Shown here: piece by piece, positions 1 to 61,150 of the stretch | Numbering within the stretch: the first letter of the stretch is position 1 | Layout of the letters: each line of letters opens with the position of its first letter | NCBI GenBank assembly: GCA_024220505.1 | Contig: JAKZZE010000003.1 | Span: 1,612,001 to 1,676,000 of the forward strand | Reading direction: 5' to 3' | Source of the DNA: Rhizopus arrhizus | Taxonomy: Eukaryota; Mucoromycota; Mucoromycetes; Mucorales; Rhizopodaceae | Length of the DNA stretch: 64,000 nt | Translations under genes and position numbers: made by a program | Notes under the pieces: generated by a model | Databases searched by the model: none | What the model was told of the DNA's origin: nothing | Seen by the model: the letters and a program-made list of their open reading frames with translations, nothing else

Positions 1-310
1 CTTTCATTCAAATGAACTTTTTACACGCCAGCATAGTTTTTCTTGTCTAGATATGCACAACCGCCTTCAGATGCCCAAATCTATCGACGATCCGCTTTCC
101 TACCTTTTGAACCTCTTACCACCAACACTCCACACCAAGAAAGCGAGAAAATCAATTGATGCATGGCTCATTCGTTGGCCCTCCATATGTGCGATATTAC
201 TCGAAATGGACTACTTAGCCCACTCTCAGTTTCCTGAAGCTTCAACCCATCTTGGTGAGCCCTTTGTCAAACATCTTCATTACATTCAGCAAAAATTTTC
301 AGATAGTTAA
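1..310 (+). CDS. 3' end of an unidentified ORF, cut by the window edge
   Basis: The frame is open from base 2 to a TAA at 308-310, about 102 codons; the first Met in the window is at 53. No domain is recognised. It lies 258 bases before the nuclease start codon in the same orientation and order as the coiled-coil ORF at 48722-49480 lies before the nuclease fragment at 49749. Both are followed by a tail with an ACCCGGGCAAT box. By position it may be the 3' end of a diverged relative of that ORF, but the protein similarity is too weak to assert. Confidence 0.45.
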   Translation, partial: FHSNELFTRQHSFSCLDMHNRLQMPKSIDDPLSYLLNLLPPTLHTKKARKSIDAWLIRWPSICAILLEMDYLAHSQFPEASTHLGEPFVKHLHYIQQKFSDS

Positions 311-498
311 TTATCATCTCTAATACACAATACTTTTACGTTTTCCCTTTAATCCCAAAAGGGGTTTTCACTCCTTTTCACTGCGATCTGACCCGGGCAA
401 TACAGCATGAAAATGCTATGTGCTCATCGGTCATTAAAAATTATTATCAAATAAAAATTATTCTTATTAATTAAAATGATGACGTATCAATCACTTAG
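311..498 (+). other. 3' flank with ACCCGGGCAAT box
   Basis: No gene. An ACCCGGGCAAT box (391-401) and an AATAAA (450-455) follow the ORF. The same box follows the coiled-coil ORFs near 1886 (-), 49570 (+) and 51066 (-), although the surrounding bases differ strongly here. This left arm is therefore an older, diverged version of the arm seen in the 50-kb palindrome. Confidence 0.4.
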
Positions 499-542
499 GT
501 TTCGCTTTGGTTTCGCTCTGGTTTCGCTTTGGTTTCGCTCTG
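499..542 (+). repeat. Four tandem 11-bp repeats upstream of the nuclease
   Basis: GTTTCGCTTTG and GTTTCGCTCTG alternate four times with no spacer, 25 bases before the nuclease ATG. The equivalent sites at 1728-1740 and near 49710 carry one copy. Probably a local expansion next to, or inside, the promoter or 5' leader. Confidence 0.75.
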
Positions 543-567
543 TTTCTGTTTAACTTATTTTTTACAG

Positions 568-1452
568 ATGTCTCTCTCCATTCTACCAGCTTCACTACGT
601 CCAGGAACTGACTTAATGTCAAAGATTGTAGCGCGTAATCCTAAAGTTATAAACATAATTACAAAAGCCTTGAACAACTCGCAAGATGAGTACATTGTGG
701 CAGAAAGCGAGTGGAACGATGGAACGCGCTCAGACTTAGTTTTGGAACCACAAAGTCAAAATCTTTCACCAATAATCATTGAATTTCAACACAGAGTAGA
801 TGAATTATTTCTCAAAAGGGCAGTCAACTATTGTCTTGAAGCATATGAAAGATACAAAAAAGAGCCCATTTTATTAATGATATGCATTGAAACTTTGTCC
901 GATGGTATTTATAGCGAAACAAAACTAAGCCGTGTTCCAGGTTGTGTAATTCACCCTTCAAGAGGTTGGGCTTCACAGTGTTTTATTTTGTGTCAGGCAG
1001 GTCTCAGCAACTATAGTATCGATGTACCTTTAGAGCCATTTGTTGCATTTGGGTTGTTCCTGACTCAACAAGCCCGCTCAATTATAAGCGCTCCTTGTAA
1101 TGATGATCCTACGATAAAATTATTGTATAACTTGGCCAACGAACATTATGAAAATATTACTGGCAACCAACTACATTTAGTCGAAGCCATAGGCCAAATG
1201 TGCGATTATCAAAATAGTGAATATGAAAAACTCCTGGAATTGATAGATAAAGTGCCAGCTTCGTTGTTGATTCAAACCATTAAGAGCGCTCAGTCAAGAA
1301 TCCACAATTTGAAAAGAAAGTATGTAGAAATTGATGAGACAGATGCTGATATTTCAGAAGCAACAACAGCCGTAACAGCAGCCGCAACAGAAGCAGAATC
1401 CTCATCACAACAAATACAATCCCCTTCTTCCTTATCCTATGAACAAGAATAG
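568..1452 (+). CDS. Rpn-like PD-(D/E)XK nuclease, copy 1 (294 aa)
   Basis: Predicted PD-(D/E)XK nuclease resembling the bacterial Rpn/YhgA (COG5464) recombination-promoting nucleases. The core shows SEWNDGTRSD (catalytic Asp at residue 56), then IIIEFQ (Glu72-x-Gln74), then a downstream Arg and Tyr (RAVNY), the order expected of Rpn proteins. After residue 250 the tail is rich in Thr, Ala, Ser and Gln. ATG 568 is chosen over an upstream TTG because TTTTTACAG, a possible 3' splice site, directly precedes it. Codons 1-88 lie in an inverted repeat; the rest lies in the 615-bp loop. The TAG stop (1450-1452) is supplied by the inverted copy of the gene's own beginning. The frame is intact. The function in a fungus is unknown; the fold assignment rests on motifs only. 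Confidence 0.65.
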   Translation: MSLSILPASLRPGTDLMSKIVARNPKVINIITKALNNSQDEYIVAESEWNDGTRSDLVLEPQSQNLSPIIIEFQHRVDELFLKRAVNYCLEAYERYKKEPILLMICIETLSDGIYSETKLSRVPGCVIHPSRGWASQCFILCQAGLSNYSIDVPLEPFVAFGLFLTQQARSIISAPCNDDPTIKLLYNLANEHYENITGNQLHLVEAIGQMCDYQNSEYEKLLELIDKVPASLLIQTIKSAQSRIHNLKRKYVEIDETDADISEATTAVTAAATEAESSSQQIQSPSSLSYEQE

Positions 1453-1712
1453 TTGACTGCCCTTTTGAGAAATAATTCATCTACTCTGTGTTGAAATTCA
1501 ATGATTATTGGTGAAAGATTTTGACTTTGTGGTTCCAAAACTAAGTCTGAGCGCGTTCCATCGTTCCACTCGCTTTCTGCCACAATGTACTCATCTTGCG
1601 AGTTGTTCAAGGCTTTTGTAATTATGTTTATAACTTTAGGATTACGCGCTACAATCTTTGACATTAAGTCAGTTCCTGGACGTAGTGAAGCTGGTAGAAT
1701 GGAGAGAGACAT
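1448..1712 (-). pseudogene. Inverted copy of the nuclease 5' end
   Basis: Reverse complement of 568-832. Read on the - strand it gives the first 88 nuclease residues, then a few unrelated codons before a stop. The catalytic Asp and Glu are present but the C-terminal two thirds is missing. It would become the start of the complete gene if the 833-1447 loop were inverted. Confidence 0.85.
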
Positions 1713-1981
1713 CTGTAAAAAATAAGTTAAACAGAACCAGAGCGAAACCCATGCGACATTGATACGTTATCATTTTAATTAATACAGTAAAAATAAATTG
1801 AGACGAATTACGATTAAAGATTATTTTTATTTATAAAAATTAAAAACCCCATGTGAGCACATAATCACTTTTAGGATTGCATTGCCCGGGTTAGATCAAA
1901 AAGAGGATTAAATGAACGAAAAACCTTTTTGATAGTCAAAAAGGGAAAAAGGAAAGGGAAGGGAAGAGGTAGAAAAGAGCT
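1713..1981. other. Nuclease upstream / coiled-coil gene 3' flank
   Basis: No ORF. It carries AT-rich sequence, one GGTTTCGCTCTGG (reverse strand) and, in reverse, the ACCCGGGCAAT box at about 1886. It is the shared 3' flank of the coiled-coil ORF and 5' flank of the nuclease fragment. Confidence 0.5.
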
Positions 1982-2740
1982 CTAGATCTTGTCTAGGAGA
2001 GGGTTGTGATAGTTGTGAGGGGGAGCGAGATCAAAAGACTCCAAGAAATTGAGGTCTATGAGTCCAGATTGGAGAAAGTAGTTAGTGACAGCGTTGTAAA
2101 GAGGAGCCTTGAGACGGCGGAAAGCAGAACCAAGTCGTTGGAGGAATACATGACGAGCAAGTTTAGTTTTTCTTTCAATGGATTCATTGAGAAGTGTAGG
2201 ATCACGAATGATGGAGGGGCTCAGAGGGTCAAAGTCGTCACGAATAGTGATTTTGTGTTTGTACAGCTGAGAACGGAGCTCAGGTTCGAAACCGGTATGG
2301 ATAAGGAAGCTGACCACATTTCGATCTGAATATTGAATATCCAGAATGCGGCGTGTGTTAATGTGCAACTCACGAAGGTTAGCACGGAGTTGATGGATGG
2401 GGAGGCGACGGTGAATGGGAATGTGAATAAACTTGAAGCTGGAAGGAGCAGTAGGAGAGGAAAATTGCCGAGCAATGGCAGCTAAACTGTGTTTGGGTTT
2501 GGGATTCGGAAGCTTAGATACCTTGGTTGTGGGAGGAGCAGCATCATTGCTGGGGGAGCGTGGACGTTTGGAGGAGGGGGGAGTAGATTCAGAAGGAGGA
2601 CTGGAGTTTGCAGCTGGTGTGGGTTCAGAGGATACTTGCTTCCGCAAAGAAGCGTTTTCCTGTTGCAACTGGTGTATCTTGGCATTAGCGATTGCGAGTT
2701 CATTTTGTAATCGTTGAATGGTTTGAAGGTGGGTGGACAT
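1982..2740 (-). CDS. Coiled-coil ORF of unknown function, copy 1 (252 aa)
   Basis: Residues 1-40 form a leucine-zipper-like coiled coil (heptads through LQTIQRLQNELAIANAK and beyond). Residues 42-85 are Pro/Ser-rich with a basic SSKRPRSPS stretch that could be a nuclear signal. Residues 95-200 form a compact region containing HIPIHRRLPIHQLR and IRDDFDPLSP. I believe this last region resembles ORFs that accompany LINE-type elements in Mucorales genomes, but I cannot confirm this here. The frame is intact in all three copies in the window (also 48722-49480 and 51162-51920), with a handful of substitutions between this copy and the other two. Its start faces the 5' end of transposon A about 75 bases away. 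No enzymatic motif is visible. Confidence 0.55.
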   Translation of the reverse strand: MSTHLQTIQRLQNELAIANAKIHQLQQENASLRKQVSSEPTPAANSSPPSESTPPSSKRPRSPSNDAAPPTTKVSKLPNPKPKHSLAAIARQFSSPTAPSSFKFIHIPIHRRLPIHQLRANLRELHINTRRILDIQYSDRNVVSFLIHTGFEPELRSQLYKHKITIRDDFDPLSPSIIRDPTLLNESIERKTKLARHVFLQRLGSAFRRLKAPLYNAVTNYFLQSGLIDLNFLESFDLAPPHNYHNPLLDKI

Positions 2741-2815
2741 GATGAATTATTTCCTTAAAAGGAAAAATTATCAAAAGTGTTGGGGAAGCGAAAGAGATCC
2801 TCTTGAGACGAATTA

Positions 2816-4250
2816 CAGTGCTTCCAGTCCCAATTGGCAACTTTTTGAACCCAATTAGTCACTTTTTTTAACTTCATTTGGTTGCTTTTTTTGAGTTTCA
2901 TTTGGTCATTTCACAATTCAATAGTAACGCTCAATGACTTCTAATATATTATACTGAAGATGGCCAAGGAAACCTTTACGATGATAGCGGCAGAGAAGCT
3001 ATGTCGGTTGATGAGTCACTCTCTTTTCGCTTATCAAAACTTAAGACTTTGCAAAAGTTTATTAAACATACGCCAGTTGATATGTCAAGACTTCTTCAAG
3101 ACAGTGCTGATGTTGTTATGAAGGATGCAGCAGTAGTTGAAAATGATACTAGGAGTACAGAATATACAAAGTATACCAGCTTTCAACGGGAGATGTATGT
3201 CCATTACGCGTTTGAAAAGAACTTGAAGAACAACGCTGCAGCTAAACTTGCCAACGTTAACACGCACACGGCTCGTAAGTGGAAAGCAGAATACATAGCT
3301 AACCCTGAAGCAGATGTTCCCCTCCCCCCCCCAAAAAAAAAAAAAATAAGACCAGAAGGCAACAGGCCTCACAACTAAACGATCAACATAAGAAACAATT
3401 AGTAGATTTTTACGATGAGAAGCCTACAGCAACTATTGAGGATGGTGTAGAAGAATTGATTAAAATTTTCGAAGGGCTCGCCATTAAAAATTCAAGGGTT
3501 GCTGAGTTTATGAAAGATGAATGTAACCTTAGTATAAAAAGTGTTACTCGTCATTCAGCTGAAAGAAATAGTCCTAAAACTATTAAAGCTCGCGCAGTTT
3601 GGGTTGCTGAATGGAGTGCTAAAGAAATTGACTATTATAATAATTGTATATTCATCGATGAATCCGGTTTTAACTTGAATATGACAAGAGGGAAGGTCTG
3701 GTCTAGACGTGACGAGCCAGCAATTGTTGCTTCTTCGTCTACCAGAGTCATCTCAAAAACCGCTCTTGGTGCAGTGTCGTCTTCTAGTATTATCAACGTA
3801 AGTGTCAAAGAACCTGGCAATTTGAAAATAAGAAGAGTAGCTGGCGCTACAAAAAGAAAAGCTCCTGGAGATCGGTTAAACGTGCCCAAAGGGTCCACTG
3901 GAGGGCATTTTATGCAATTCATTGCTGGTACGATGGATATTATGGACCAGTTTCCATAGATGAAAGGGTATCATCTAGTGATGGATAATGCTCCAATTCA
4001 CGTTCATAGCATCGTTGATCCTCTCATTGCCAGTCGTGGATATATACCTGTATACCTCCCGCCTTATCCAGAATTAAACCCAATTAAGCAGTTCTGGAAA
4101 GACTTAAAAGACTACGTTAAGAGAGAAAAGCTTCAGAACAATAAGACACTTACCTCTCAAATGATAGATGTCTGTGAGCAAGTGCCACTAAAAAAATATA
4201 CAAAATTATGTTCAGCATTCCATCAGTACTTTCCCCAGGTGCATAAATAA
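2816..4250 (+). mobile_element. Tc1/mariner-like transposon A, copy 1 (decayed)
   Basis: The 5' end starts CAGTGCTTCCAGTCCC after a TA dinucleotide (2814-2815), as Tc1 elements do. No matching inverted 3' terminus was found before 7389, so the element is probably truncated. Only the transposase-bearing part is delimited here. Confidence 0.6.
2941..4250 (+). pseudogene. Tc1-like DDE transposase A, copy 1
   Basis: Homologous to transposase B of this window. An N-terminal helix-turn-helix region ends in HTARKWKAEY. The DDE domain shows CIFIDESGFNLNM, YHLVMDNAPIH and PELNPIKQFW. Defects: no in-frame start codon (the position aligned with the B start reads CTA), a frameshift at the C9/A14 run near 3326-3348, a TAG (3958-3960) where B has Glu, loss of the Ser codon in the PPYSPELNP motif, and Lys instead of the third catalytic acid (NPIK for NPIE). 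It cannot be active. Confidence 0.85.
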
Positions 4251-4547
4251 ATTACCCATCGGGGAACAGAGAAAGAGATTGCAGCATCTATAAAGACAAT
4301 AGCAGAGCAGATAAGCAAGGTCAAGCTGGCTATATCGTCAAGAAACATTGAAGATATGCCTAAAGGATTTTTCTCCTCAAATGATTTAAATATAATCTGT
4401 AATCTTTTTGATTCATATTCGACGGATTATCGATTTGCGAAAGGCTCGATCTATTACGACTGCAAATCTAACCCTCTCAAACACATAAAAGCATACTATA
4501 GACTGTCAAGCAAATTTATTTTATTAAATCGTCTCATTTTAGATTAA
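4251..4547 (+). pseudogene. Open fragment of unknown origin
   Basis: The frame of transposase A reopens after its TAA and runs 98 codons to 4547 (KEIAASIKTIAEQISK, then DMPKGFFSSND, then YYDCKSNPLKHIKAYY). The part from ATG 4356 (63 codons) is retained in all three copies with only N/D and S/N changes. I recognise no family; it may be a fragment of an unrelated gene captured downstream of transposon A. Confidence 0.3.
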
Positions 4548-7389
4548 AACACTGTGCCCGCTACCCGTGAAAACAATTGGTTCACGTACAACATAAACCT
4601 ATCAAATTATAACTGTAATTTGGCGCACTAATTTTGATTTCGATAAAGGACAAAAAAAGTTGAATATCAATGCTCATACATCTCATAATGGAATTAATGT
4701 AATAAAAAGCTTTATCTTTTGTTCCCGATCAATCTCTTGATTCTACAGCTTAGCATCCAATGAAGTATTCTTCAACATGCAAATTCTTTCATCTAATCCA
4801 TAATACAGATGAAGAATATTTCTTGGTACGTTGCTATCATCCCTTCCGTACTTTTAGCCTGGTATTTTTCTACAATTCTATTTTGTTTTGAAAACTTTTT
4901 TGGGCTGACTTCAGTATCACCAAGGCAACATGGTGAAATAATTTTAAATTCATTCAATTATCGCCATTTTTTGCATTGTCATAATTGGCTAATGTGAATG
5001 TGATGTATAGAAAGGAGTAGGGCTGCCTCACATTGCAGTCAGATGTTCGATATAGCATATAGCTGAAACAATGATGAAAATTGAATTCTATCTGTCCAAG
5101 CTAATAAAGAAAATAAAAAAGCTCAAGACATTGGATTTTTCCTTTAGAATCTATTATCTAAATAGATTATTGTTATCATGGGTGATTCTTTATCTTGCAA
5201 AACAAAACATGTTATTGATGCCCTTTTGATTATCCCTAAATTTCAATCAATGCGTAATGATAATATTAATAATGTATCGAATGAGCGTGTGTCAACTTTC
5301 AGTTTTGTACCATCACTGTCATTAATGGTCATTGCAAATGCCATGGCACCTTAGTTGGATAGGAAGCAATGATGTATATAGTACAGCACCTTTTTGAGAG
5401 CCAAAGGATCATAATATATGTATCGATTTCATATGGCTGTAAAATTCAGCGCAATTCATGGCAACAGCTTGTTTATTGATCTCATTTATTATGATGGTAC
5501 CAGTATAAATTTGAGAACAGTAAAAGCCCATTTATTATTTTGGGGGCAAGTCTTCATTCAAAGAAGACATATATCTAGGTTCAATTTCACATGTTTTCCG
5601 GTTCTAATACAGTACGATAGGGAGAAGGACATGCAGTATTCTATAAATTCATCACTATCGTATCTTCAAAATTAAATCGTCCAATTTTAATTTTATTTTA
5701 AATTTGATCAAGAAAATCAGCTGTCTTGAATCTGTGGTCTTTGATCTCATTTCTCACTTTGATTTTTAAAGTGTTATTTGCTGCATGTTATGATAACCTT
5801 TGGCTAATAAATTTGAACGTTATCAATCATCGGATTCTAATGAAGTAATACCTTTTTTTTTCCATCAAATTGCCTTAAAAAGTAGTAGTAACATATTGTT
5901 CTTGACTTGCAATACTGATGGCAATTATAATTGTTGCATTAGAATTCATAAAAGTTATACTGAAGCCATGTGAACAAAGCCAAATTTATAATGCTTCTTA
6001 GCTTTGCCAATTCAAGATTTTTCTTTTTTTACTATTTTCCATACAGATGAGATAAAGTCCCTACTATCATAATAATAAAAACATTTATCTAATTCTTTCT
6101 TTTCATTTGAACTTGTATAAGTACTCAGTCATCTAGTTGTAACCTGATCAACAACCTTTTCATTTAGGCCGAGAGGTTCTCAATCCAGTCAATCTTTTTC
6201 CTCAAACACAAAATGATTATTTTCATCAGTTTTCATTCTCTTGTATACCTCTTGTGATTTTATTGGGACAAACACATTCGACGGATGTCAAGAAGAAAAA
6301 GAAGAACAGAAAGATAGTGGAAGTCCGCGTTACACAATTAACGTAATCAAGAGAGTATGAATGTGGGTTATTTTAATTACGCCCTTGATCAATTACTTTT
6401 CTGTCAAACAATCTATCCTCTGAGAAACTTTAAAGTCTTTAGGCTATTGTTGTGTCATGAGAAACATGATCTTAATCTGAAAGTGCTATTGCAAATACCT
6501 TTCTATGTAATCTTATGAAAAAAAAAAGAGCAAGTTTTCAGCCAAAAATAAAAGTTTTATCTTTTTTTTCAGACTTTCAGGAAAATTTGAACAGTTTGAG
6601 CTTATAAACATTATAACACCCAGAAAAGAAAAGAAAAAAAAAACTTATCAAACTTTGTACGCAAGTGTACAGAGTGACAAAGAAAAGTAAAATGAATTTC
6701 CTTGTGCTGTTAATACATACTACTAGTTCTGATTGGCTAGTGTAGTTTGTACTGTGTAGGGAATTCTATTTAATTTGTCGTGGGGCTGCAACTGCAAGGT
6801 GTAACAACCGGATAAATCAATCCTCTCATCAGAGAGATGTCTTGTATTTATCCTTGTATCTATCCTTGCATTCAATAGATATCTTATATGTGTTGATACT
6901 TGTTGATTATGTCATATTATGAGCAAGAAGGCTTTTGTAGACACTACTTGTATTTGAGTTAATCTCTTAAAGAACTCTTGCATATAATTAATTTATATAG
7001 TTTAATACAAAAGAAAGTCATTATATTTTATCATCATGCGTGTGTGTGTTTTTTTCTTCTTCTTTTTACAGACATTAGAGTGGTCAACATATAAAATAAG
7101 ATTACTTTCAGTATTGAATATATATGCAACCAAGAAGAAATCTATATAAAAATATCATCTGTTTGACTGTAAATCGAAGCTTTCTTTGCTGTAAAAGAGC
7201 AGCTCAATGCAGATCTTTACCCCACATTTTGAATGTGGGTAAAAACAAATGATTTTAGCTCCGACTAAATAAAAGAGGGGTGGATGGACAAGACGAAGGC
7301 TTAAGCGTCATTTTTAATTTGTGTAAAAAACCATCGATTATGCCCCTGATATCAAAAGGTAAAACCTATTTAGTATTTTTGACACTGTA
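4548..7389. other. 2.8-kb non-coding arm segment
   Basis: AT-rich and present three times (also 44052-46921 and 53721-56591). It holds scattered short frames, for example 85 codons at 5418-5675, identical in all copies but without a recognisable domain. It also has oligo(A/T) runs, CTCTCATCAGAGAG near 6826, and a hairpin at 7221-7239 (CCCACATT, loop TTG, AATGTGGG). The segment ends ..GACACTG just before the TA and terminus of transposon B. Confidence 0.5.
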
Positions 7390-8898
7390 CAGTCGTTCCA
7401 CCATCAATTGGACATTTTTTCGAAAATTAGGGTCGGGTTTTAGAAAAAAAATTATTGCTTTTTTTGGATAGTTTGATCCAAAAGAAGAAATTTATTTGCG
7501 CGCTTTCTTGAAAATTAATTGGTCAAGAATTTTATTTTACTTGGTCAAAAAAAATAAATTACTTGATCACATTTCAAAAGTTGACCAAGGCAAGATTATA
7601 TTGGGAGTTTATTCAAGCAATTCTCAAATTGATTTACTGAATGTTGAACGAAGTTATGAAGATATTCCGCAGGTACATTTTCACTAGCCTCTATAATTCT
7701 AGAAGTGAGACTATCCGTATTCGTGAATTTACTTCGTTTGACTTTTCCCTTTAAAATAGCCCAGAACTGTTCAATCGGATTTAATTCAGGTGAATATGGT
7801 GGAAGATATACAGGTTTATAACCTCTTTTTTCGATAATAGGATCAATTGAGTCTGGGACGTGAATTGGTGCGTTATCCATAACGATAAAAAACCCTCTCA
7901 TCTCAGGAAACTCATCCATGATATCCATGGTATCGTTAATAAAATTGAGATAGTGACCTGAAGTAGTCCCTTTAGGGACAGATATCCTATCCTCAGGTGA
8001 TTTTCTTTTGGTGGCACCCACAACCTTCCTTCTCTTAACATTACCTGGTTCCTTTAAACTTATGTTCACGACACCAAAAGCAGAGATTGCACCAATAATT
8101 GTGTGTGATACAGCTCTTGCTGAAGGGGTTGTAATAACTGCTGGTGAACCACGAGCTGCCCAACCTCGACTTCGACGCATATTGATATCAAAGCCAGATT
8201 CATTAATAAAAATGCAATTCTTTAAATAATCCATGCCGTCATTGATCCACTTTTGAACCCATTCAGCGCGTTCCTGCATAGTCTTTTCACTATTTCTTGC
8301 AACAGGATGACGACTTACAGTCTTAATGCTAAGATTATACTCTTCCTTCATAAACTCTGCTACTCTCGACTTTCTAATTTCTAGGCCAGCAAAGCTCGTG
8401 GTCAAATCATCTACTGCATCTTGAATATAAGCTGAAGGATTTTCATCAAAAAAGCTGATCAAATGTTTCTTGTGGTTCTCGTTAAGCTGACTAACCGGTC
8501 TATTAGGTGTGCGGTTGGTTTTTTTTTAGAGGAATATTCTTCTCTGGATCTCTGTCGTATATCTGCTTCCATTTGCGTGCAGTATCATAGTTTACATTCG
8601 CAGCTTTAGCTGCCTCCTTCGGTTTCATAAGCTTTTCTGACATAAAATAAAAATACCTTCGACGATCTTCATCAGTATAAATATTGTACTGAGTAGCTCT
8701 TTCTTTCTTAGGAGGCGTTTCCTCCATCATTATGTCTTCAGGTTCTTCTAATTCAAAATGAACTTCTGTATTTTTTATATACTTTCGAAGATCAGTTAGT
8801 TTTCTCAATCTAAATGACTTTTCCTCAATAAATGTCGTTGCTTCATCGCCTTTCTCATCAAATATATTGCCTGTACCATCCTCATAAAAATACTGCAT

Positions 8899-8899
<1 letters not shown>
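7390..8899 (-). mobile_element. Tc1/mariner-like transposon B, copy 1
   Basis: The 3' terminus CAGTCGTTCCACCATC begins right after TA (7388-7389). The 5' end was lost to the LINE fragment whose poly(T) abuts the transposase start at 8900. The terminal sequence CAATTGGACATTTTTTCG resembles the terminus of transposon A (CAATTGGCAACTTTTTGA), so A and B are related families. Confidence 0.75.
7596..8898 (-). pseudogene. Tc1-like DD34E transposase B, copy 1 (double defect)
   Basis: Two frames, 8503-8898 and 7596-8462, together cover the 433-aa protein that is intact at 56753-58054. One extra T in a T9 run (8519-8527; T8 in the intact copy) shifts the frame after the N-terminal HTH region. The first catalytic residue is Asn (CIFINESGF) where the intact copy has Asp. 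The other catalytic motifs, FFIVMDNAPIH and PYSPELNPIEQFW, are kept. Both defects recur in the copy at 13526. Confidence 0.9.
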
Positions 8900-8932
<33 letters not shown>

Positions 8933-9429
8933 TAAAAGGAGGATTTTATTCCGGTGCCGCAAGGCGTACACCTTTGTAAGCAATAAATAAATTATAATCG
9001 AGGGGGGTTTGTTCATTTTTGTTATTTTGTTTTGTAATCCGTGCGAAGTTTGATACTGGCAACAAAATCTGAGGTAGAGAACTGAGCAGAAACGTATGGA
9101 TTAGCTGTTTGGTGATCGACTGCTGTTTTCTTTGTGAATCTTGAGAATTTGCCTAGTGGCTCTTGCTACTACTTCTTGAGGCCAGAATTGATATTCATCG
9201 AAAATAAATTTCCAGTGAAGTTGCCATAAAGAGAGCAGCACAGAAGCTATGATATCCAAGTAGGTCACCGAAAGTGAAGGAGCGACTTCAATGCCAGAGG
9301 AAGAAGGGAGTTTAATGAGGCTGTAAGTCAACCTGGCAGGGTCAACGAAAAAGCGAGAAGCAATTGTTTGCCAGATTTCATGTTTCAAAGGACAAGACCA
9401 GACAAAGTGTTCTTCAGAGTCGATACCGC
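8900..9429 (-). mobile_element. 5'-truncated LINE 3' end
   Basis: Poly(T) at 8900-8931, then the reverse complement of the last 0.5 kb of the LINE at 30314-35745: the end of ORF2 from GGIDSEEHFVWSC, and the 3' tail ending GGAATAAAATCCTCC. The 5' truncation point is next to a SINE target duplication. On the transposon B side the poly(T) directly joins CATGCAG; about 25 bases present at 58055-58080 are missing, so the insertion or a later event deleted target DNA. Confidence 0.9.
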
Positions 9430-9653: not shown

Positions 9654-9692
9654 TTTTAAGAAAGAGACCAAGTACACCTTTTGCAAAAACGA

Positions 9693-9806: not shown

Positions 9807-9833
9807 AAAGACATGTCACATATATTGTTCTGT

Positions 9834-9892
9834 CACCGTGGTCATCACCGTGGTCATCACCGTGGTCATTACCGTGGTCATCACCGTGGTCA
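9834..9892 (+). repeat. 12-bp minisatellite, short allele (5 units)
   Basis: ACCGTGGTCATC units, about five copies, followed by ACGCCTAGG. The opposite arm (12290-12592) has about 25 units of the same repeat. Each unit contains ACCGTGGT, a near-palindrome with ACC/GGT arms. Confidence 0.9.
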
Positions 9893-51161: not shown

Positions 51162-51920
51162 CTAGATCTTGTCTAGGAGAGGGTTGTGATAGTTGTGAGG
51201 GGGAGCGAGATCAAAAGACTCCAAGAAATTGAGGTCTATGAGTCCAGATTGGAGAAAGTAGTTAGTGACAGAGTTGTAAAGAGGAGCCTTGAGACGGCGG
51301 AAAGCAGAATCAAGTCGTTGGAGGAATACATGACGAGCAAGTTTAGTTTTTCTTTCAATGGATTCATTGAGAAGTGTAGGATCACGAATGATGGAGGGGC
51401 TCAGAGGGTCAAAGTCGTCACGAATAGTGATTTTGTGTTTGTACAGCTGAGAACGGAGCTCAGGTTCGAAACCGGTATGGATAAGGAAGCTGACCACATT
51501 TCGATCTGAATATTGAATATTCAGAATGCGGCGTGTGTTAATGTGCAACTCACGAAGGTCAGCACGGAGTTGATGGATGGGGAGGCGACGGTGAATGGGA
51601 ACGTGAATAAACTTGAAGCTGGAAGGAGCAGTAGGAGAGGAAAATTGCTGAGCAATGGCAGCTAAACTGTGTTTAGGTTTGGGATTCGGAAGCTTAGATA
51701 CCTTGGTTGTGGGAGGAGCAGCATCTTTGCTGGGGGAGCGTGGACGTTTGGAGGAGGGGGGAGTAGATTCAGAAGGAGGACTGAAGTTTGCAGCTGGTGT
51801 GGGTTCAGAGGATACTTGCTTCCGCAAAGAAGCGTTTTCCTGTTGCAACTGGTGTATCTTGGCATTAGCGATTGCGAGTTCATTTTGTAATCGTTGAATG
51901 GTTTGAAGGTGGGTGGACAT
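51162..51920 (-). CDS. Coiled-coil ORF, copy 3 (252 aa)
   Basis: Mirror of 48722-49480; intact. Confidence 0.55.
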   Translation of the reverse strand: MSTHLQTIQRLQNELAIANAKIHQLQQENASLRKQVSSEPTPAANFSPPSESTPPSSKRPRSPSKDAAPPTTKVSKLPNPKPKHSLAAIAQQFSSPTAPSSFKFIHVPIHRRLPIHQLRADLRELHINTRRILNIQYSDRNVVSFLIHTGFEPELRSQLYKHKITIRDDFDPLSPSIIRDPTLLNESIERKTKLARHVFLQRLDSAFRRLKAPLYNSVTNYFLQSGLIDLNFLESFDLAPPHNYHNPLLDKI

Positions 51921-52120
51921 GATGAATTATTTCCTTAAAAGGAAAAATTATCAAAAGTGTTGGGGAAGCGAAAGAGATCCTCTTGAGACGAATTACAGTG
52001 CTTCCAGTCCCAATTGGCAACTTTTTGAACCCAATTAGTCACTTTTTTTAACTTCATTTGGTTGCTTTTTTTGAGTTTCATTTGGTCATTTCACAATTCA
52101 ATAGTAACGCTCAATGACTT

Positions 52121-53423
52121 CTAATATATTATACTGAAGATGGCCAAGGAAACCTTTACGATGATAGCGGCAGAGAAGCTATGTCGGTTGATGAGTCACT
52201 CTCTTTTCGCTTATCAAAACTTAAGACTTTGCAAAAGTTTATTAAACATACGCCAGTTGATATGTCAAGACCTCTTCAAGACAGTGCTGATGTTGTTATG
52301 AAGGATGCAGCAGTAGTTGAAAATGATACTAGGAGTACAGAATATACAAAGTATACCAACTTTCAACGGGAGATGTATGTCTATTACGCGTTTGAAAAGA
52401 ACTTGAAGAACAACGCTGCAGCTAAACTTGCCAACGTTAACACGCACACGGCTCATAAGTGGAAGGCAGAATACATAGCTAACCCTGAAGCAGATGTTCC
52501 CCTCCCCCCAAAAAAAAAATAAGACCGGAAGGCAACAGGCCTCACAACTAAACGATCAACATAAGAAACAATTAGTAGATTTTTACGATGAGAAGCCTAC
52601 AGCAACTATTGAGGATGGTGTAGAAGAATTGATTAAAATTTTCGAAGGGCTCGCCATTAAAAATTCAAGGGTTGCTGAGTTTATGAAAGATGAATGTAAC
52701 CTTAGTATAAAAAGTGTTACTCGTCATTCAGCTGAAAGAAATAGTCCTAAAACTATTAAAGCTCGCGCAGTTTGGGTTGCTGAATGGAGTGCTAAAGAAA
52801 TTGACTATTATAATAATTGTATATTCATCGATGAATCCGGTTTTAACTTGAATATGACAAGAGGGAAGGTCTGGTCTAGACGTGACGAGCCAGCAATTGT
52901 TGCTTCTTCGTCTACCAGAGCCATCTCAAAAACCGCTCTTGGTGCAGTGTCGTCTTCTAGTATTATCAACGTAAGTGTCAAAGAACCTGGCAATTTGAAA
53001 ATAAGAAGAGTAGCTGGCGCTACAAAAAGAAAAGCTCCTGGAGATCGATTGAACGTGCCCAAAGGATCCACTGGAGGGCATTTTATGCAATTCATTGCTG
53101 GTACGATGGATATTATGGACCAGTTTCCATAGATGAAAGGGTATCATCTAGTGATGGATAATGCTCCAATTCACTTTCATAGCATCGTTGATCCTCTCAT
53201 TGCCAGTCGTGGATATATACCTGTATACCTCCCGCCTTATCCAGAATTAAACCCAATTAAGCAGTTCTGGAAAGACTTAAAAGACTACGTTAAGAGAGAA
53301 AAGCTTCAGAACAATAAGACACTTACCTCTCAAATGATAGATGTCTGTGAGCAAGTGCCACTAAAAAAATATACAAAATTATGTTCAGCATTCCATCAGT
53401 ACTTTCCCCAGGTGCATAAATAA
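52121..53423 (+). pseudogene. Tc1-like transposase A, copy 3
   Basis: Mirror of 47219-48521 with all its defects; 5' terminus CAGTGCTTCCAGTCCC near 51996. Confidence 0.85.
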
Positions 53424-53720
53424 ATTACCCATCGGGGAACAGAGAAAGAGATTGCAGCATCTATAAAGACAATAGCAGAGCAGATAAGCAAGGTCAAGCT
53501 GGCTATATCGTCAAGAAACATTGAAGATATGCCTAAAGGATTTTTCTCCTCAAATGATTTAGATATAATCTGTAATCTTTTTGATTCATATTCGACGGAT
53601 TATCGATTTGCGAAAGGCTCGATCTATTACGACTGCAAATCTAACCCTCTCAAACACATAAAAGCATACTATAGACTGTCAAACAAATTTATTTTATTAA
53701 ATCGTCTCATTTTAGATTAA
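53424..53720 (+). pseudogene. Open fragment of unknown origin, copy 3
   Basis: Mirror of 46922-47218. Confidence 0.3.
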
Positions 53721-56591
53721 AACACTGTGCCCGCTACCCGTGAAAACAATTGGTTCACGTACAGCATAAACCTATCAAATTATAACTGTAATTTGGCGCA
53801 CTAATTTTGATTTCGATAAAGGACAAAAAAAAGTTGAATATCAATGCTCATACATCTCATAATGGAATTAATGTAATAAAAAGCTTTATCTTTTGTTCCC
53901 GATCAATCTCTTGATTCTACAGCTTAGCATCCAATGAAGTATTCTTCAACATGCAAATTCTTTCATCTAATCCATAATACAGATGAAGAATATTTCTTGG
54001 TACGTTGCTATCATCCCTTCCGTACTTTTAGCCTGTATTTTTCTACAATTCTATTTTGTTTTGAAAACTTTTTTGGGCTGACTTCAGTATCACCAAGGCA
54101 ACATGGTGAAATAATTTTAAATTCATTCAATTATCGCCATTTTTTGCATTGTCATAATTGGCTAATGTGAATGTGATGTATAGAAAGGAGTAGGGCTGCC
54201 TCACATTGCAGTCAGATGTTCGATATAGCATATAGCTGAAACAATGATGAGAATTGAATTCTATCTGTCCAAGCTAATAAAGAAAATAAAAAAGCTCAAG
54301 ACATTGGATTTTTCCCTTTATAATCTACTATTTAAATAGATTATTGTTATCGTGGGTGATTCTTTATCTTGCAAAACAAAACAAGTTACTGATGCCCTTT
54401 TGATTATCCCTAAATTTCAATCAATGCGTAATGATAATATTAATAATGTATCGAATGAGCGTGTGTCAACTTTCAGTTTTGTACCATCACTGTCATTAAT
54501 GGTCATTGCAAATGCCATGGCACCTTAGTTGGATAGGAAGCAGTGATGTATATAGTACAGCACCTTTTTGAGAGCCAAAGGATCATAATATATGTATCGA
54601 TTTCATATGGCTGTAAAATTCAGCGCAATTCATGGCAACAGTTTGTTTATTGATCTCATTTATTATGATGGTACCAGTATAAATTTGAGAACAGTAAAAG
54701 CCCATTTATTATTTTGGGGGCAAGTCTTCATTCAAAGAAGACATATATCTAGGTTCAATTTCACATGTTTTCCGGTTCTAATACAGTACGATAGGGAGAA
54801 GGACATGCAGTATTCTATAAATTCATCACTATCGTATCTTCAAAATTAAATCGTCCAATTTTAATTTTATTTTAAATTTGATCAAGAAAATCAGCTGTCT
54901 TGAATCTGTGGTCTTTGATCTCATTTCTCACTTTGATTTTTAAAGTGTTATTTGCTGCATGTTATGATAACCTTTGGCTAATAAATTTGAACGTTATCAA
55001 TCATCGGATTCTAATGAAGTAATACCTTTTTTTTTTCATCAAATTGCCTTAAAAAGTAGTAGTAACATATTGTTCTTGACTTGCAATACTGATGGCAATT
55101 ATAATTGTTGCATTAGAATTCATAAAAGTTATACTGAAGCCATGTGAACAAAGCCAAATTTATAATGCTTCTTAGCTTTGCCAATTCAAGATTTTTCTTT
55201 TTTTACTATTTTCCATACAGATGAGATAAAGTCCCTACTATCATAATAATAAAAACATTTATCTAATTCTTTCTTTTCATTTGAACTTGTATAAGTACTC
55301 AGTCACCTAGTTGTAACCTGATCAACAACCTTTTCATTTAGGCCGAGAGGTTCTCAATCCAGTCTATCTTTTTCCTCAAACACAAAATGATTATTTTCAT
55401 CAGTTTTCATTCTCTTGTATACCTCTTGTGATTTTATTGGGACAAACACATTCGACGGATGTCAAGAAGAAAAAGAAGAACAGAAGGATAGTGGACCAAG
55501 CAGATCTTGATTGGATGGAAGTCCGCGTTACACAATCAACGTAATCAATAGAGTATGAATGTGGGTTATTTTAATTACGCCCTTGATCAATTACTTTTCT
55601 GTCAAACAATCTATCCTCTGAGCAACTTTAAAGTCTTTAGGCTATTGTTGTGTCATGAGAAACATGATCTTAATCTGAAAGTGCTATTGCAAATACCTTT
55701 CTATGTAATCTTATGAAAAAAAAAACAGCAAGTTTTCAGCCAAAAACAAAAGTTTTATCTTTTTTTTTTCAGACTTTCAGGAAAATCTGAACAGTTTGAG
55801 CTTATAAACATTATAACACCCAGAAAAGAAAAGAAAAAAAAAAAACTTATCAAACTTTGTACGCAAGTGTACAGAGTGACAAAGAAAAGTAAAATGAATT
55901 TCCTTGTGCTGTTAATACATACTACTAGTTCTGATTGGCTAGTGTAGTTTGTACTGTGTAGGGAATTCTATTTAATTTGTCGTGGGGCTGCAACTGCAAG
56001 GTGTAACAACCGGATAAATCAATCCTCTCATCAGAGAGATGTCTTGTATTTATCCTTGTATCTATCCTTGCATTCAATAGATATCTTATATGTGTTGATA
56101 CTTGTTGATTATGTCATATTATGAGCAAGAAGGCTTTTGTAGACACTACTTGTATTTGAGTTAATCTCTTAAAGAACTCTTGCATATAATTAATTTATAT
56201 AGTTTAATACAAAAGAAAGTCATTATATTTTATCATCATGCGTGTGTGTGTTTTTTTCTTCTTCTTTTTACAGACATTAGAGTGGTCAACATATAAAATA
56301 AGATTACTTTCAGTATTGAATATATATGCAACCAAGAAGAAATCTATATACAAATATCATCTGTTTGACTGTAAATCGAAGCTTTCTTTGCTGTAAAAGA
56401 GCAGCTCAATGCAGATCTTTACCCCACATTTTGAATGTGGGTAAAAACAAATGATTTTAGCTCCGACTAAATAAAAGAGGGGTGGATGGACAAGACGAAG
56501 GCTTAAGCGTAATTTTTGATTTGTGTAAAAAACCATCGATTATGCCCCTGATATCAAAAGGTAAAACCTATTTAGTATTTTTGACACTGTA
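53721..56591. other. Non-coding arm segment, copy 3
   Basis: As 4548-7389. It retains the 23 bp (GACCAAGCAGATCTTGATTG region, about 55494) missing from unit 1. Confidence 0.5.
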
Positions 56592-58073
56592 CAGTCGTTC
56601 CACCATCAATTGGACATTTTTTCGAAAATTAGGGTCGGGTTTTAGAAAAAAAATTATTGCTTTTTTGAAAATTAATTGGTCAAGAATTTTATTTTACTTG
56701 GTCAAAAAAAATAAATTACTTGATCACATTTCAAAAGTTGACCAAGGCAAGATTATATTGGGAGTTTATTCAAGCAATTCTCAAATTGATTTACTGAATG
56801 TTGAACGAAGTTATGAAGATATTCCGCAGGTACATTTTCACTAGCCTCTATAATTCTAGAAGTGAGACTATCCGTATTCGTGAATTTACTTCGTTTGACT
56901 TTTCCCTTTAAAATAGCCCAGAACTGTTCAATCGGATTTAATTCAGGTGAATATGGTGGAAGATATACAGGTTTATAACCTCTTTTTTCGATAATAGGAT
57001 CAATTGAGTCTGGGACGTGAATTGGTGCGTTATCCATAACGATAAAAAACCCTCTCATCTCAGGAAACTCATCCATGATATCCATGGTATCGTTAATAAA
57101 ATTGAGATAGTGACCTGAAGTAGTCCCTTTAGGGACAGATATCCTATCCTCAGGTGATTTTCTTTTGGTGGCACCCACAACCTTCCTTCTCTTAACATTA
57201 CCTGGTTCCCTTAAATTTATGTTCACGACACCAAAAGCAGAGATTGCACCAATAATTGTGTGTGATACAGCTCTTGCTGAAGGGGTTGTAATAACTGCTG
57301 GTGAACCACGAGCTGCCCAACCTCGACTTCGACGCATATTGATATCAAAGCCAGATTCATCAATAAAAATGCAATTCTTTAAATAATCCATGCCGTCATT
57401 GATCCACTTTTGAACCCATTCAGCGCGTTCCTGCATAGTCTTTTCACTATTTCTTGCAACAGGATGACGACTTACAGTCTTAATGCTAAGATTATACTCT
57501 TCCTTCATAAACTCTGCTACTCTCGACTTTCTAATTTCTAGGCCAGCAAAGCTCGTGGTCAAATCATCTACTGCATCTTGAATATAAGCTGAAGGATTTT
57601 CATCAAAAAAGCTGATCAAATGTTTCTTGTGGTTCTCGTTAAGCTGACTAACCGGTCTATTAGGTGTGCGGTTGGTTTTTTTTAGAGGAATATTCTTCTC
57701 TGGATCTCTGTCGTATATCTGCTTCCATTTGCGTGCAGTATCATAGTTTACATTCGCAGCTTTAGCTGCCTCCTTCGGTTTCATAAGCTTTTCTGACATA
57801 AAATAAAAATACCTTCGGCGATCTTCATCAGTATAAATATTGTACTGAGTAGCTCTTTCTTTCTTAGGAGGCGTTTCCTCCATCATTATGTCTTCAGGTT
57901 CTTCTAATTCAAAATGAACTTCTGTATTTTTTATATACTTTCGAAGATCAGTTAGTTTTCTCAATCTAAATGACTTTTCCTCAATAAATGTCGTTGCTTC
58001 ATCGCCTTTCTCATCAAATATATTGCCTGTACCATCCTCATAAAAATACTGCATGTTTAAATTCAAAGTGCTG
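56592..58073 (-). mobile_element. Tc1-like transposon B, copy 3 (intact transposase)
   Basis: 3' terminus CAGTCGTTCCACCATC after TA (56590-56591). On the 5' side the sequence CAGCACTTTGAATTTAAAC runs up to another TA (58074-58075). The two ends share little beyond CAG, so the 5' terminus may be truncated or the true boundary lost. Confidence 0.75.
56753..58054 (-). CDS. Tc1-like DD34E transposase B (433 aa, intact)
   Basis: Cut-and-paste transposase. The N-terminal half has a helix-turn-helix region ending AANVNYDTARKWKQIY. A second DNA-binding part contains LEIRKSRVAEFMKEEYNLS. The catalytic domain has CIFIDESGFDINM (Asp), FFIVMDNAPIH (Asp) and PYSPELNPIEQFW (Glu) with 34 residues between the last two acids. 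ATG 58054 is used; a TTG four codons upstream also lies in frame. It is the only one of seven transposase copies in the window with an open frame and all three acids. Confidence 0.92.
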   Translation of the reverse strand: MQYFYEDGTGNIFDEKGDEATTFIEEKSFRLRKLTDLRKYIKNTEVHFELEEPEDIMMEETPPKKERATQYNIYTDEDRRRYFYFMSEKLMKPKEAAKAANVNYDTARKWKQIYDRDPEKNIPLKKTNRTPNRPVSQLNENHKKHLISFFDENPSAYIQDAVDDLTTSFAGLEIRKSRVAEFMKEEYNLSIKTVSRHPVARNSEKTMQERAEWVQKWINDGMDYLKNCIFIDESGFDINMRRSRGWAARGSPAVITTPSARAVSHTIIGAISAFGVVNINLREPGNVKRRKVVGATKRKSPEDRISVPKGTTSGHYLNFINDTMDIMDEFPEMRGFFIVMDNAPIHVPDSIDPIIEKRGYKPVYLPPYSPELNPIEQFWAILKGKVKRSKFTNTDSLTSRIIEASENVPAEYLHNFVQHSVNQFENCLNKLPI

Positions 58074-58119
58074 TAACTATTTTTTTTTTTTTTTTTTTTT
58101 TTTGTAAAACTGTAACTAT
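58071..58119 (-). mobile_element. Extremely 5'-truncated retroinsertion (A-tail only)
   Basis: CTGTAACTAT at 58071-58080 and 58110-58119 flanks T23 plus GTAAAA, that is, the last bases of a LINE-like tail (TTTTAC) and its A-tail in reverse. It is at the same site used by the SINE in units 1 and 2. Confidence 0.7.
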
Positions 58120-58123: not shown

Positions 58124-59690
58124 AAGAAAGAGACCAAGTTTTCCCCTGATTCAGTCTTTTCATCAGCGTCGTTATCTAGAACAACAGTTGTTACAGACAG
58201 TGAAATCTCAATGTATCATCTACTCTCAACGTAAATTTTCTATCAAAGGACGCGTTACCATAGTGAATGCATTAATACTTTCTAAATTGTGGTATGTTCT
58301 GCGGATGGTTCATTTGCCGAGTACCTTCTTTCGACGGCTCAATTCTGCGATTTATCAGTTTGTCTGGCATAATTGCAAACCTAAGATCAAATACACGCAG
58401 TTGTGTTTAGATCCAAAGTTAGGTGGGTTAGGTCTTTTGGATCCACAAATTCAACGACACAACCTACAGATACGCTGGCTTCGTCAAGTTCTGGAAGATA
58501 ACCACCCTCAGTCTTGTAGTCAACCTATATTGCTAGATCATATACGTCGTTTCCATTCAGGAAATACTGGAACAAGACTAGCTCTCTTTTTCCCTCTTTT
58601 GCGATTGCGTCCTGCTGCTCACGCCAATAACTTTATGCAAAACATATATGAGGCAGTTGATTCTTTCAGACATGCAGATACAGAACAGGCAAAGTGTACT
58701 CCTGCCACACTTCTCCGTTTGCCCCTGTCTGCTATATTCGCTATGATTCCTACTGATTATTGGATCACTCGATCACGACACAAAAAACTCAAGGTGTCTC
58801 AATTTTTTACGTATGATCACCACTTTGGATGTATACGACCTTTATTGTCATCTGACCAGCCTTCCTCCCCTCGTCTGGTTTCTAAGTTAAGCCGAGATAT
58901 TCATAATCGTACCATCAAGCTAAATCAGCTTATCTGGCCTCATATATTGAATCAAAATCAACCATTGGGTGAAGTAGACGATTCAGCGTTCATCGATGCC
59001 TTCTGTTCGCAGCCCCAATGGATCAATTACAAACCTAAACCATTTCGGTTGTCTCTCATACAGCGATCTCTACCATCATCGCAATGTCACCACTACCAAC
59101 TTCCAAGTGGTCACTTTTTTGGAAAATGCCTGTTTCGCCTGAAAGCCGGTCTTTATGGTATCGTCTATTCCATCGTAAACTCTATAGCCAATCACTTCTT
59201 TCAAGATTTGATAATGGTTTGACCTCTTCACAATGTAAATTTTGTTCTGCTAATGCTGAAGACTTACAACACCTCTTCGTGCGCTGTCCTATGAAATGGA
59301 GAGTATGGATAGATGCCTTCAATTTCTTTAGTCCACACCTCACTTTCACTCAAGACGATGTATGCTCAATTCTCTGGTCTTTCCAGCAGTTTACTTTTGT
59401 TGACAACACTGATCTCTGGGCTCTCAGCTGCTGTGTGCTTTCCGTTATCTGGCGTGCCCACTGGAGATTTACTATTGACGGCTTTCCTTTTATTGATAAA
59501 CAGCTGGTCACTCGTGCTATGTCGCAGTTTGCCACCCTCAAAAGGGGCAGACTTGACCTTGACTAGCATGTTCAATCGCCTACACTCTGTTCCGTTTGGT
59601 TCATACCGCTCTCAGACGTGTGACTCCTATTATAATTTATAAATAAAAATAAACTATTTATTTACAAAAAAAAAAAAGAAAGAGACCAAG
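58124..59690 (+). mobile_element. 5'-truncated LINE, third copy class
   Basis: Target duplication AAGAAAGAGACCAAG at 58124-58138 and 59676-59690; the empty site is intact at about 9657-9672. It covers the ORF2 C-terminal part in two frames (58188-59222 and 59084-59566) with a frameshift in the overlap. Motifs: GRVTIVNALILSKLWY, LCLDPKLGGLGLLDPQIQ and zinc finger CKFCSANAEDLQHLFVRC. The 3' tail TATTTAC plus A-run resembles the LINE at 26619. Confidence 0.88.
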
Positions 59691-59710
59691 TACACCTTTT
59701 GCCAAAACGA

Positions 59711-59818
59711 TGTCGCAAAAAAAGAAATTAAAGTGTCGCATTTTTACAAAAAATAGTGTCGTATGCTTTTAGAAAAGAGAGTCGCAAAATTCGAAGAAAT
59801 AGTGTCGTGCTTTTCAAA
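59711..59818 (+). repeat. Five 23-bp phased repeats
   Basis: TGTCG/AGTCG cores at 59711, 59734, 59757, 59780 and 59803, all 23 bp apart. Confidence 0.85.
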
Positions 59819-59845
59819 AAAAAAAGACATGTCACATATTGTTCT

Positions 59846-60227
59846 GTCACCATGGTCATTACCATGGTCAACACCGTGGTCATCACCGTGGTCAACACCG
59901 TGGTCATCATCGTGGTCATCACCGTGGTCATCACCGTGGTCATCACCGTGGTCATTACCATGGTCAACACCGTGGTCATCACCGTGGTCATTACCATGGT
60001 CAACACCGTGGTCATCACCGTGGTCATTACCATGGTCAACACCGTGGTCATCACCGTGGTCATTACCATGGTCAACACCGTGGTCATCACCGTGGTCATC
60101 ACCGTGGTCATCACCGTGGTCGTAACCGTGGTCATCACCGTGGTCATCACCGTGGTCGTAACCGTGGTCATCACCGTGGTCGTAACCGTGGTCATTACGG
60201 TGGTTATACCGTGGTCATACTAAAATA
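59846..60227 (+). repeat. 12-bp minisatellite, unit 3
   Basis: About 30 units (ACCGTGGTCATC, ACCGTGGTCAAC, ACCATGGTCAAC, ACCGTGGTCGTA), degenerating at 60200-60227. Two further units at 60488-60511 follow the LTR-like insertion. Confidence 0.95.
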
Positions 60228-60487
60228 TGTCTTGAAGTCGGGGTTTGATAAGTAGCCTAAATGGGCAGGAGACTTCAAGTAGAAAGAAGAATAAAACAAA
60301 TAGTTATTCTAGATAAAAGATAATCTTTATTCATATAAGAAAATGTCGAGATATTTATAGTTTCTGTATAGTAGCCGCAGTAGTGGCGTAGTGATCGCGC
60401 AGTACTCAATCCATTTGATACGAAGTGGTTGCCGTAGCAACGACTCGACCTGAGCCTGAATTGGAGAATGAATTGAGGCTCGCAACA
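60228..60487. mobile_element. LTR-like insertion inside the minisatellite
   Basis: 260 bp from TGTCTTGAAGTC to GCTCGCAACA (TGT..ACA ends), with GAATAAAG on the - strand as a possible poly(A) signal. A clean 5-bp duplication is not seen. ATACCGTGGTCA occurs on both sides, but it may simply be the minisatellite. Solo LTR is the best guess. Confidence 0.45.
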
Positions 60488-60599
60488 ATACCGTGGTCAA
60501 CACCGTGGTCACGCCTAGGTTTTTTTGTTAACCAATCAAAGTCTGAGTGATTTCAAATAAAAATCATTTTTTTTTTTAAATTTGCACTCTCTTCTCGCC

Positions 60600-60815
60600 A
60601 TGGTTTTTATAAGTCGTAATCAAGCACTTTGCATTTTTTTTCAACTAAAGTTCAATGAAGAAAACAGCGTTCAAGCTTTAGAAAAGTTCCAAGCATTAAG
60701 CGATCAATTTGAGGTGTGCTATTTAACTGATCCGGCAGTTCCCGTACTTGCAACTAAATTACAGATTTCAAAGTATCCGTTAATCTTTTACACCTACAAG
60801 TCCTTTGAACTATAA
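60600..60815 (+). pseudogene. First-exon fragment of the recombinase-like gene (unit 3)
   Basis: 71 codons, matching the fragment at 11983-12198 except Phe for Cys near the end. Here the fragment form, not the gene form, adjoins the forward unit, the reverse of the situation at 9982. Confidence 0.7.
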
Positions 60816-61150
60816 CCAGTGGCACCTATAAGTACATACAAGCACCTTAATACGAAGGGCTTAAGTCGAGCTACTTATTGCTCTTAATTCTTCTTTTTGA
60901 AACACAAATACTCTATAAAATAAAAATTTAATATGTGGTCTGACTAGTTGACTATCGAAAAATGTTATCTTTATTCACAGATGGTTATAAAAACAGCGAG
61001 CTTTGTCAAAGGAAAACTGCAGGATATGCTGTCGTAAAAAAATAAGAATGCATCAATTCACGGGGTTATTCGCGCTATGGGAAGATTTAAGTTACAAGCA
61101 CCAACATAGGTTACCTAAAGGTAATTTTCAAGTTACATGGTTCTTTCCAA
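60816..61150. other. Loop sequence of the third recombinase-like locus
   Basis: Homologous to the reverse of 11660-11982. A frame at about 60965-61037 (+) reads LFTDGYKNSELCQRKTAGY, RNase H-like but too short to assign. It is cut after CAAGTTA by the LINE. Confidence 0.4.

Follow-up and report, generated by a model that had tools for sequence, protein, structure and literature searches.

How did large DNA copies in alternating orientation come to stand side by side in a fungal contig, joined to one another through only two kinds of gene-bearing loop? The window analyzed here is a 64,000-nucleotide stretch of Rhizopus arrhizus DNA (C23:1612001-1676000; contig C23 is 2,431,692 bp long in a 50.26-Mb genome of 41 contigs), and it was compared with itself together with 40 kb to its left and 20 kb to its right; all positions are window coordinates. 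The array probably arose by chromosomal inverted amplification, either akin to origin-dependent inverted-repeat amplification (ODIRA) or by fold-back, seeded at two inverted repeats that were already present, with the arms later homogenized within each palindrome.

Self-alignment placed the array at 524-61138 in the order U1(+)-F-U2(-)-N-U3(+)-F, where U denotes a unit, N a loop with a nuclease-like gene and F a loop with a serine-recombinase-like gene (R), and a tail-only unit, U4(-), follows past the window end (73893-75609). The alternation and the two kinds of joining loop, first described in a sequence-only reading of the window, were thus confirmed, and three units of ~9 kb in alternating orientation match the form of an ODIRA-type product (alternating copies, odd in number at the origin). 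The multi-kilobase identities within the array are far beyond chance. Unit 1 (524-9893, + strand; self-alignment, own-genome searches, open reading frames and Pfam) consists of an N inverted-repeat block (524-1756), a dispersed repeat (1809-2803), an IS630/mariner-like element (2803-4555), a body (4560-7386) and a tail made up of a second IS630-like element (7519-8937) and a 3' fragment of a long interspersed nuclear element (LINE; 8915-9430). Unit 2 (- strand) lies in two parts, a tail half (12528-14906) and a body half (43920-50013), and unit 3 (50629-58109, + strand; self-alignment and open reading frames) is followed by a LINE fragment different from that of U1.

The alternating copies meet at exactly the two loops. 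N loop copy 2 (50014-50628) is exactly 615 bp long, as had been claimed, and forms the center of a 6-kb palindrome with arms of ~6,038 bp that are 99.93% identical. N loop copy 1 (833-1447), the outermost, has arms of 309 bp (524-832 and 1448-1756), beyond which similarity falls to 86% over ~50 bp and then to 69% over 137 alignment columns. At this copy, then, an inverted repeat is present and the long arms are not. The first F palindrome (A; 9646-12775) has a loop at 10131-12049 between inner inverted repeats (9833-10130 and 12050-12348; 299 bp, 99.0% identical), inward-pointing arrays of a 12-bp repeat (9833-9892, + strand; 12289-12588, - strand) and outer arms of 2,379 bp (99.83%). Palindrome C is present as a left half (59676-61138; array and R' side, R' being the short gene that faces R) and, after a 10.7-kb LINE-bearing insert, a right half with the R gene outside the window (71860-73893), so that right half and U4(-) together span 71860-75609. 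A locus on contig C3 carries the F arrangement (inverted arrays and the same order of R and R') with arms of ~1 kb beside ordinary genes, one of which resembles TFIIF alpha by eye, and no unit array was found there within the 16 kb read. Since this is a diverged R locus on another contig, the F inverted repeat was probably not produced by the array.

The contents of the units agree with a chromosomal origin. Own-genome searches found full-length copies of the body only in this cluster; elsewhere there is one partial copy (94%, C23:1579004) and two short weak matches. The 1809-2803 repeat is dispersed, with 34 further places among the matches listed, and a further copy of the IS630/mariner-like element lies at -6066 to -4314. 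The units are therefore composed of DNA unique to the cluster and of ordinary transposons. U4 stops at the border of the second IS630-like element and may for that reason be part of an F inverted repeat that was present beforehand. Beyond it, after a DIRS-like element, 150 bp (79951-80100) match 7387-7536 at 97%. As 7387-7520 is itself a dispersed repeat, U4 need not hold any body sequence.

U2 is split by a 29-kb insert (14907-43919; self-alignment, with Pfam matches to reverse transcriptase, RNase H, Dam and, weakly, tyrosine recombinase) bounded by two DIRS-like retrotransposons in direct orientation (14902-19277 and 39551-43924; 99.9% identical). The U2 halves meet the outer ends of the two DIRS copies, and joined together they restore uninterrupted U1 sequence, so the split is a real insertion, as the sequence-only reading had proposed. 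The insert also marks a change in relationship among the units. At 60 informative sites of the body, U2 agrees with U3 at 54, with U1 at four, and U1 agrees with U3 at two. At 14 variable sites of the tail, by comparison, four group U1 with U2 against U3 with U4, nine are private to U4, one is private to U2 and none joins U2 to U3. U2 thus changes partner at the insert, and conversion confined to single palindromes would account for this without any coincidence. Divergence between palindromes is ~1% in substitutions (the identity figure of ~98% includes gaps).

We propose the following course of events. The locus would first have held two inverted repeats. In the N block, a nuclease-family gene would have been accompanied by 309 bp repeating its 5' end in inverted form, with a loop of 615 bp; in the F block, R and R' would have converged, with their 5' ends inverted, their 12-bp arrays directed inward and a loop of ~2 kb. 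Such a layout, with a segment between two small-looped inverted repeats, is what ODIRA-like closed forks act on, and their product is that segment in alternating orientation with both loops at the joints (PMC4689423). Template switching at both repeats, at a replication fork or by fold-back, with forks closing at the interrupted inverted repeats, may have given a hairpin-capped intermediate, then an inverted dimer that re-integrated by homology. The segment between N and F would thereby have been copied in alternating orientation and joined at both loops, with the short-armed outer N copy as the original boundary and tail-only U4 as the original right arm of F. Afterward, gene conversion between arms within each palindrome would have kept the arms alike, and LINE, DIRS and IS630-type elements would have inserted here and there.

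Several points weigh against this proposal. The order of units could also result from several separate fold-backs in succession, or from a single inversion followed by unequal exchange. ODIRA is described at short interrupted repeats, whereas those here measure 309 bp and more. The tail grouping of U1 with U2 is thin, with four sites in 14. Arms of 99.9% identity could hide assembly faults, although the one-sided insertions and unequal arrays argue otherwise. Of the 34 listed places of the 1809-2803 repeat, five have a nuclease-family gene no more than 3 kb away (0.44 on average in shuffles, with none of 2,000 reaching five). A dispersed repeat of ~466 bp that ends beside the array (1-466; a distant relative, at 69% and inverted, of the beginning of the 1809-2803 repeat) is likewise near such a gene at two of 12 places (mean 0.10; p 0.0065), both on contig C15. 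There (C15:475428-484630), a convergent nuclease pair is flanked by two oppositely oriented copies of the 1-466 repeat, both at a distance of 2,259 bp. This mirror spacing suggests another palindrome with arms of ~3 kb and weighs against any claim that long arms occur in this cluster alone; forming long palindromes may be characteristic of these genes and not the outcome of a single event. Taken together, the C15 locus and the repeats beside nuclease genes make us slightly less confident in inverted amplification and slightly more open to an autonomous element, considered below.

The genes in the loops belong to large dispersed families. A protein search of the genome gave at least 128 matched stretches in 84 same-strand loci for the R family and at least 106 matched stretches in 96 loci for the nuclease (N) family, and the named homologs of the loop genes come from Thamnidium, Rhizopus, Cunninghamella, Absidia, Cokeromyces, Mucor, Backusella and Helicostylum, all genera of the Mucorales. 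As first noted, the 5' ends of the loop genes lie in the arms. The nuclease-like gene N1 (568-1452, + strand; second copy at 50009-50893, - strand, with 13 of 882 bases different) is PD-(D/E)XK-like with a D...E-x-Q core. Homologs P0010, P0016 and P0018 extend at least 50 residues past the stop at the arm junction (after SYEQ), so the window gene is 3'-truncated, and the claim that either loop orientation keeps a complete gene fails for the nuclease. Its profile matches all fall below the curated cut-offs (PDDEXK_2, E 0.0022; DUF2887, E 0.0046; TIGR01784, E 0.035), weakly suggesting a kinship with Rpn nucleases, and several homologs match none of the three profiles. The structure model was poor, with a predicted local distance difference test score (pLDDT) of 42, and a sequence search of solved structures returned no relevant match for the R or the nuclease family.

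R copy A (9982-11259, + strand) has four introns of 50-55 nt and has lost 1 bp from a run of A near 10767, and it faces R' copy A (11983-12198, - strand), a gene of 71 codons. R' holds the first ~50 codons of R and then diverges, and its end is similar in A and B and recognizable by eye at C3. R copy B (28858-27581, - strand) has a gene model without a frame break and faces R' copy B (26117-26332, + strand). A serine-recombinase catalytic-domain fold was found for P0004, a homolog of R. The family keeps the Ser of YARKS, and the stretch corresponding to DRxGR reads DYAGL, DYSGF, DYASL or GYAGL; both catalytic arginines of that motif (R68 and R71) are absent in all seven homologs that hold the stretch. 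The possibility that the R copies are dead genes was rejected, as their apparent frame breaks are introns, apart from 1-bp breaks in A runs (copies A and C3) and, in copy D, one stop and one insertion; P0001, from a public assembly, lacks the A-run break of copy A.

Both loop-gene families form convergent pairs of a long gene and a shortened paralog, which is new. Among opposite-strand neighbors within 3.5 kb, convergent arrangements number five for R and 12 for N against none and one divergent, respectively, and outside the C23 cluster the ratio is 13 to one (one-sided binomial 0.0009); most R and N loci have no such partner in these lists. Nine of the 13 outside pairs were read (on C3, C40, C7, C9, C37, C21 and C1, and two on C39). 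An inverted repeat at or just before both 5' ends was present in four, namely C3 (556 bp, 91%), C40 (175 bp, 98%; beginning ~30 bp before the ATG), one on C39 (80 bp, 96%) and C9 (41 bp, 93%), and none was found at the 5' ends in the other five. Inverted arms at these pairs reach ~1 kb at most (C3). Inverted 5' ends so short, or not found, speak against an autonomous element of the kind discussed below.

The long nuclease partners keep the D and E-x-Q core in all eight sequences (six pairs and the two window types), while the short partners keep the catalytic Asp in none of six and the Glu in two of six. The partners on C1 were labeled by the motif itself, and the fair counts for Asp are seven of seven long (the core likewise being complete in seven of seven) and none of five short. 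Several members are broken: the C1 long copy has stops, one in-frame stop interrupts a C39 short partner, and the reading frame shifts in the C37 long copy. A domain tree groups short partners across loci (C9s with C39s, support 100, and these with C21s, 94; C37s with C39bs, 99), indicating that those pairs are old and have traveled as pairs; C1 and C1s are joined with a support of only 59, and the C1 sequence used contained a typing error. Outside the cluster, R and N loci do not co-localize above chance: of 74 merged R loci, eight have an N locus no more than 20 kb away, where shuffles give a mean of 5.5 (p 0.19), and distances of 10 and 40 kb led to the same outcome.

The R introns show an unexpected conservation. 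Between copies A and B, intron sites differ at 15 of 210 positions (12 of 174 without splice ends) and synonymous sites at 48.5% (Fisher p 8e-23), the four introns being 91-98% identical (93% overall); against C3, introns differ at 60 of 208 sites for A and 67 of 207 for B, with 63% at synonymous sites in both cases. Better conservation of introns than of synonymous sites is the wrong direction for neutral change. One idea is pressure on the spliced mRNA to escape RNA interference (RNAi) arising from the palindromes.

Speculatively, these observations can be joined in a single reading, which we regard as possible though doubtful. Two unrelated Mucorales families, an Rpn-like nuclease and an arginine-less serine-recombinase-like protein, would each independently have taken the form of a long gene convergent with a shortened paralog, the promoter and 5' end being common to both as an inverted repeat, constituting a new two-gene selfish or self-regulating module. 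An active nuclease would be paired with a dead partner as restraint or antidote, and the recombinase-like protein with its N-domain alone as a regulator bound at the 12-bp arrays, while the palindromic form would feed RNAi and seed inverted amplification. Escape of the spliced mRNA from cross-silencing would then explain why R copies A and B differ by 48% at synonymous sites and 7% in introns. The pairs also raise the question of why, in two unrelated families, a long gene and a shortened copy have been kept face to face, sometimes with a near-identical start.

The 12-bp arrays, which in inverted orientation flank R at A, B, C/D and C3, raise an alternative that we consider unlikely, namely that F, and perhaps N, are foldback-type DNA transposons (FB, Galileo, Tetris) and that transposition, with ectopic recombination between copies, formed the palindromes. 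At F a loop does lie between inverted repeats built of short tandem repeats, and such repeats are described for Galileo and foldback elements in extracts of two papers (PMC3573991, PMC3688188). However, three repeats in a row are matched exactly at only two places in the genome, C3 and this cluster (+ on the left, - on the right), inspection by eye showed no target-site duplication at C3, a single isolated copy whose arms end inside sequence that looks like a neighboring gene, the inverted repeat on C40 has no array and no DDE transposase was recognized in the loop.

Less probable still is an origin as an integrated multimer of an autonomous element, 2-micron-like or hairpin-ended, with the nuclease and the recombinase-like protein as core genes and the recombinase flipping the loops. 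The sequence-only reading had suggested it, and its likeness to the products of hairpin-ended molecules holds insofar as the 'dog bone' intermediate of ODIRA gives the same order of units. The two supposed core genes, however, are the large dispersed chromosomal families described above; the unit carries generic transposons, and no plasmid replication or partition gene was recognized in it (no profile search was aimed at partition genes). The R family is without both DRxGR arginines, the nuclease gene is truncated, the N loop DNA occurs only twice in the whole genome, and the opposite orientation of the loops is also predicted by a simple inverted duplication. In a Pfam scan of ten window proteins, the sole tyrosine-recombinase match was in the DIRS element, and the loop protein has a serine-type fold, so it is not a recombinase of the Flp type.

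An assembly artefact from fold-back chimeric reads or mis-joined repeats, which arms of up to 99.93% identity and A-run breaks resembling homopolymer errors (in R copies A and C3, P0001 being without the former) might suggest, is the least probable reading, given one-sided insertions with clean borders (in palindrome B, a LINE flanked by a 15-bp duplication and confined to one arm; in U2, DIRS), array lengths unequal between arms, ~1% divergence between palindromes and the same N loop junction at two places. A centromere was also considered, the array being interior to C23 (1.61-1.69 of 2.43 Mb) and LINE-rich, and was dropped, as the LINE family is scattered over many contigs (37 of 1,438 candidates scored).

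The 29-kb insert in U2 holds a palindrome of its own. F palindrome B (24398-30313; ~80% identical to A; arrays at 24512-26036 and 28939-30124) lies within it between 3.8-kb palindromic flanks, the left (20617-24412) with an IS630-like gene and a nuclease-family gene (22505-23185) and the right at 35745-39539. The LINE in the right arm only (30314-35744, + strand) has a perfect 15-bp target-site duplication. The nuclease-family gene (36% identical) is present in both arms (22505-23185 and 36972-37652) and carries stops; genes of the N and R families thus stand again in one palindrome. The DIRS-like element in U4 is distantly similar to that of U2 and inserted ~20 bp away, indicating a separate insertion. 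Two different DIRS-like elements (at 14906 and 75609; L055/L056) within ~20 bp at the end of the same IS630-like element hint at a preferred target. In F loop A, a 300-bp repeat (11352-11651) not seen in the other F loops matches at least 36 other places in the genome at 97-99% and is perhaps a solo long terminal repeat or a short interspersed nuclear element that spread recently. To the left of the array, a separate inverted pair (L053; -15255 to -12287; 857 bp, 99.8%) has no match to it.

Inverted amplifications and palindromes are mostly known fresh from the laboratory or on sex chromosomes. In this natural fungal array the seed repeats, the two junctions, the one-sided insertions and the signature of arm conversion can all be read, and, as the two halves of each palindrome seem to go on correcting one another, it would illustrate in nature the origin and persistence of large DNA palindromes. 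Our literature search returned no paper on Mucorales foldback transposons and none on a Mucoromycota serine recombinase with transposable elements; by title and start of abstract, papers on Mucorales palindromes and on Rhizopus convergent inverted repeats or gene conversion held nothing on this array, and the toxin-antidote papers among the matches listed held nothing on such pairs.

The comparisons that follow draw on extracts of the cited papers. In foldback and Galileo elements, too, a gene-bearing loop lies between long inverted repeats composed of short tandem repeats, whereas here no transposase was recognized, exact arrays occur at two places only and no target duplication was seen. The Rpn nuclease with its intragenic antitoxin (PMC10327210) also combines a PD-(D/E)XK nuclease, putative in our case, with a short related protein beside the long one. 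Bacterial RpnS, however, is the C-terminal domain made from an internal start, while the short partner here is encoded by its own convergent gene and retains the nuclease domain with the catalytic Asp lost, and kinship with Rpn is suggested by weak matches. The actively maintained inverted repeats of nematodes (PMC1803023) likewise hold convergent homologous gene pairs that stay alike while their sequence changes; in our pairs one partner is shortened, the short nuclease partner is without the catalytic Asp, only the 5' ends are alike and there are many dispersed copies. Human Y palindromes with arm-to-arm conversion (PMC3723533) share with this array arms that are alike within a palindrome and less so between palindromes, and they differ from its setting in a transposon-rich fungal contig with small loops holding gene pairs. 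The closest likeness to the amplification proposed here is with the ODIRA inverted triplications at yeast SUL1, for which junction loops at interrupted inverted repeats and a predicted hairpin-capped intermediate are described (PMC4689423). Both have alternating inverted copies with loops at interrupted inverted repeats, and the array in R. arrhizus appears older and decayed, with a tail-only fourth copy and longer, gene-bearing seed repeats.

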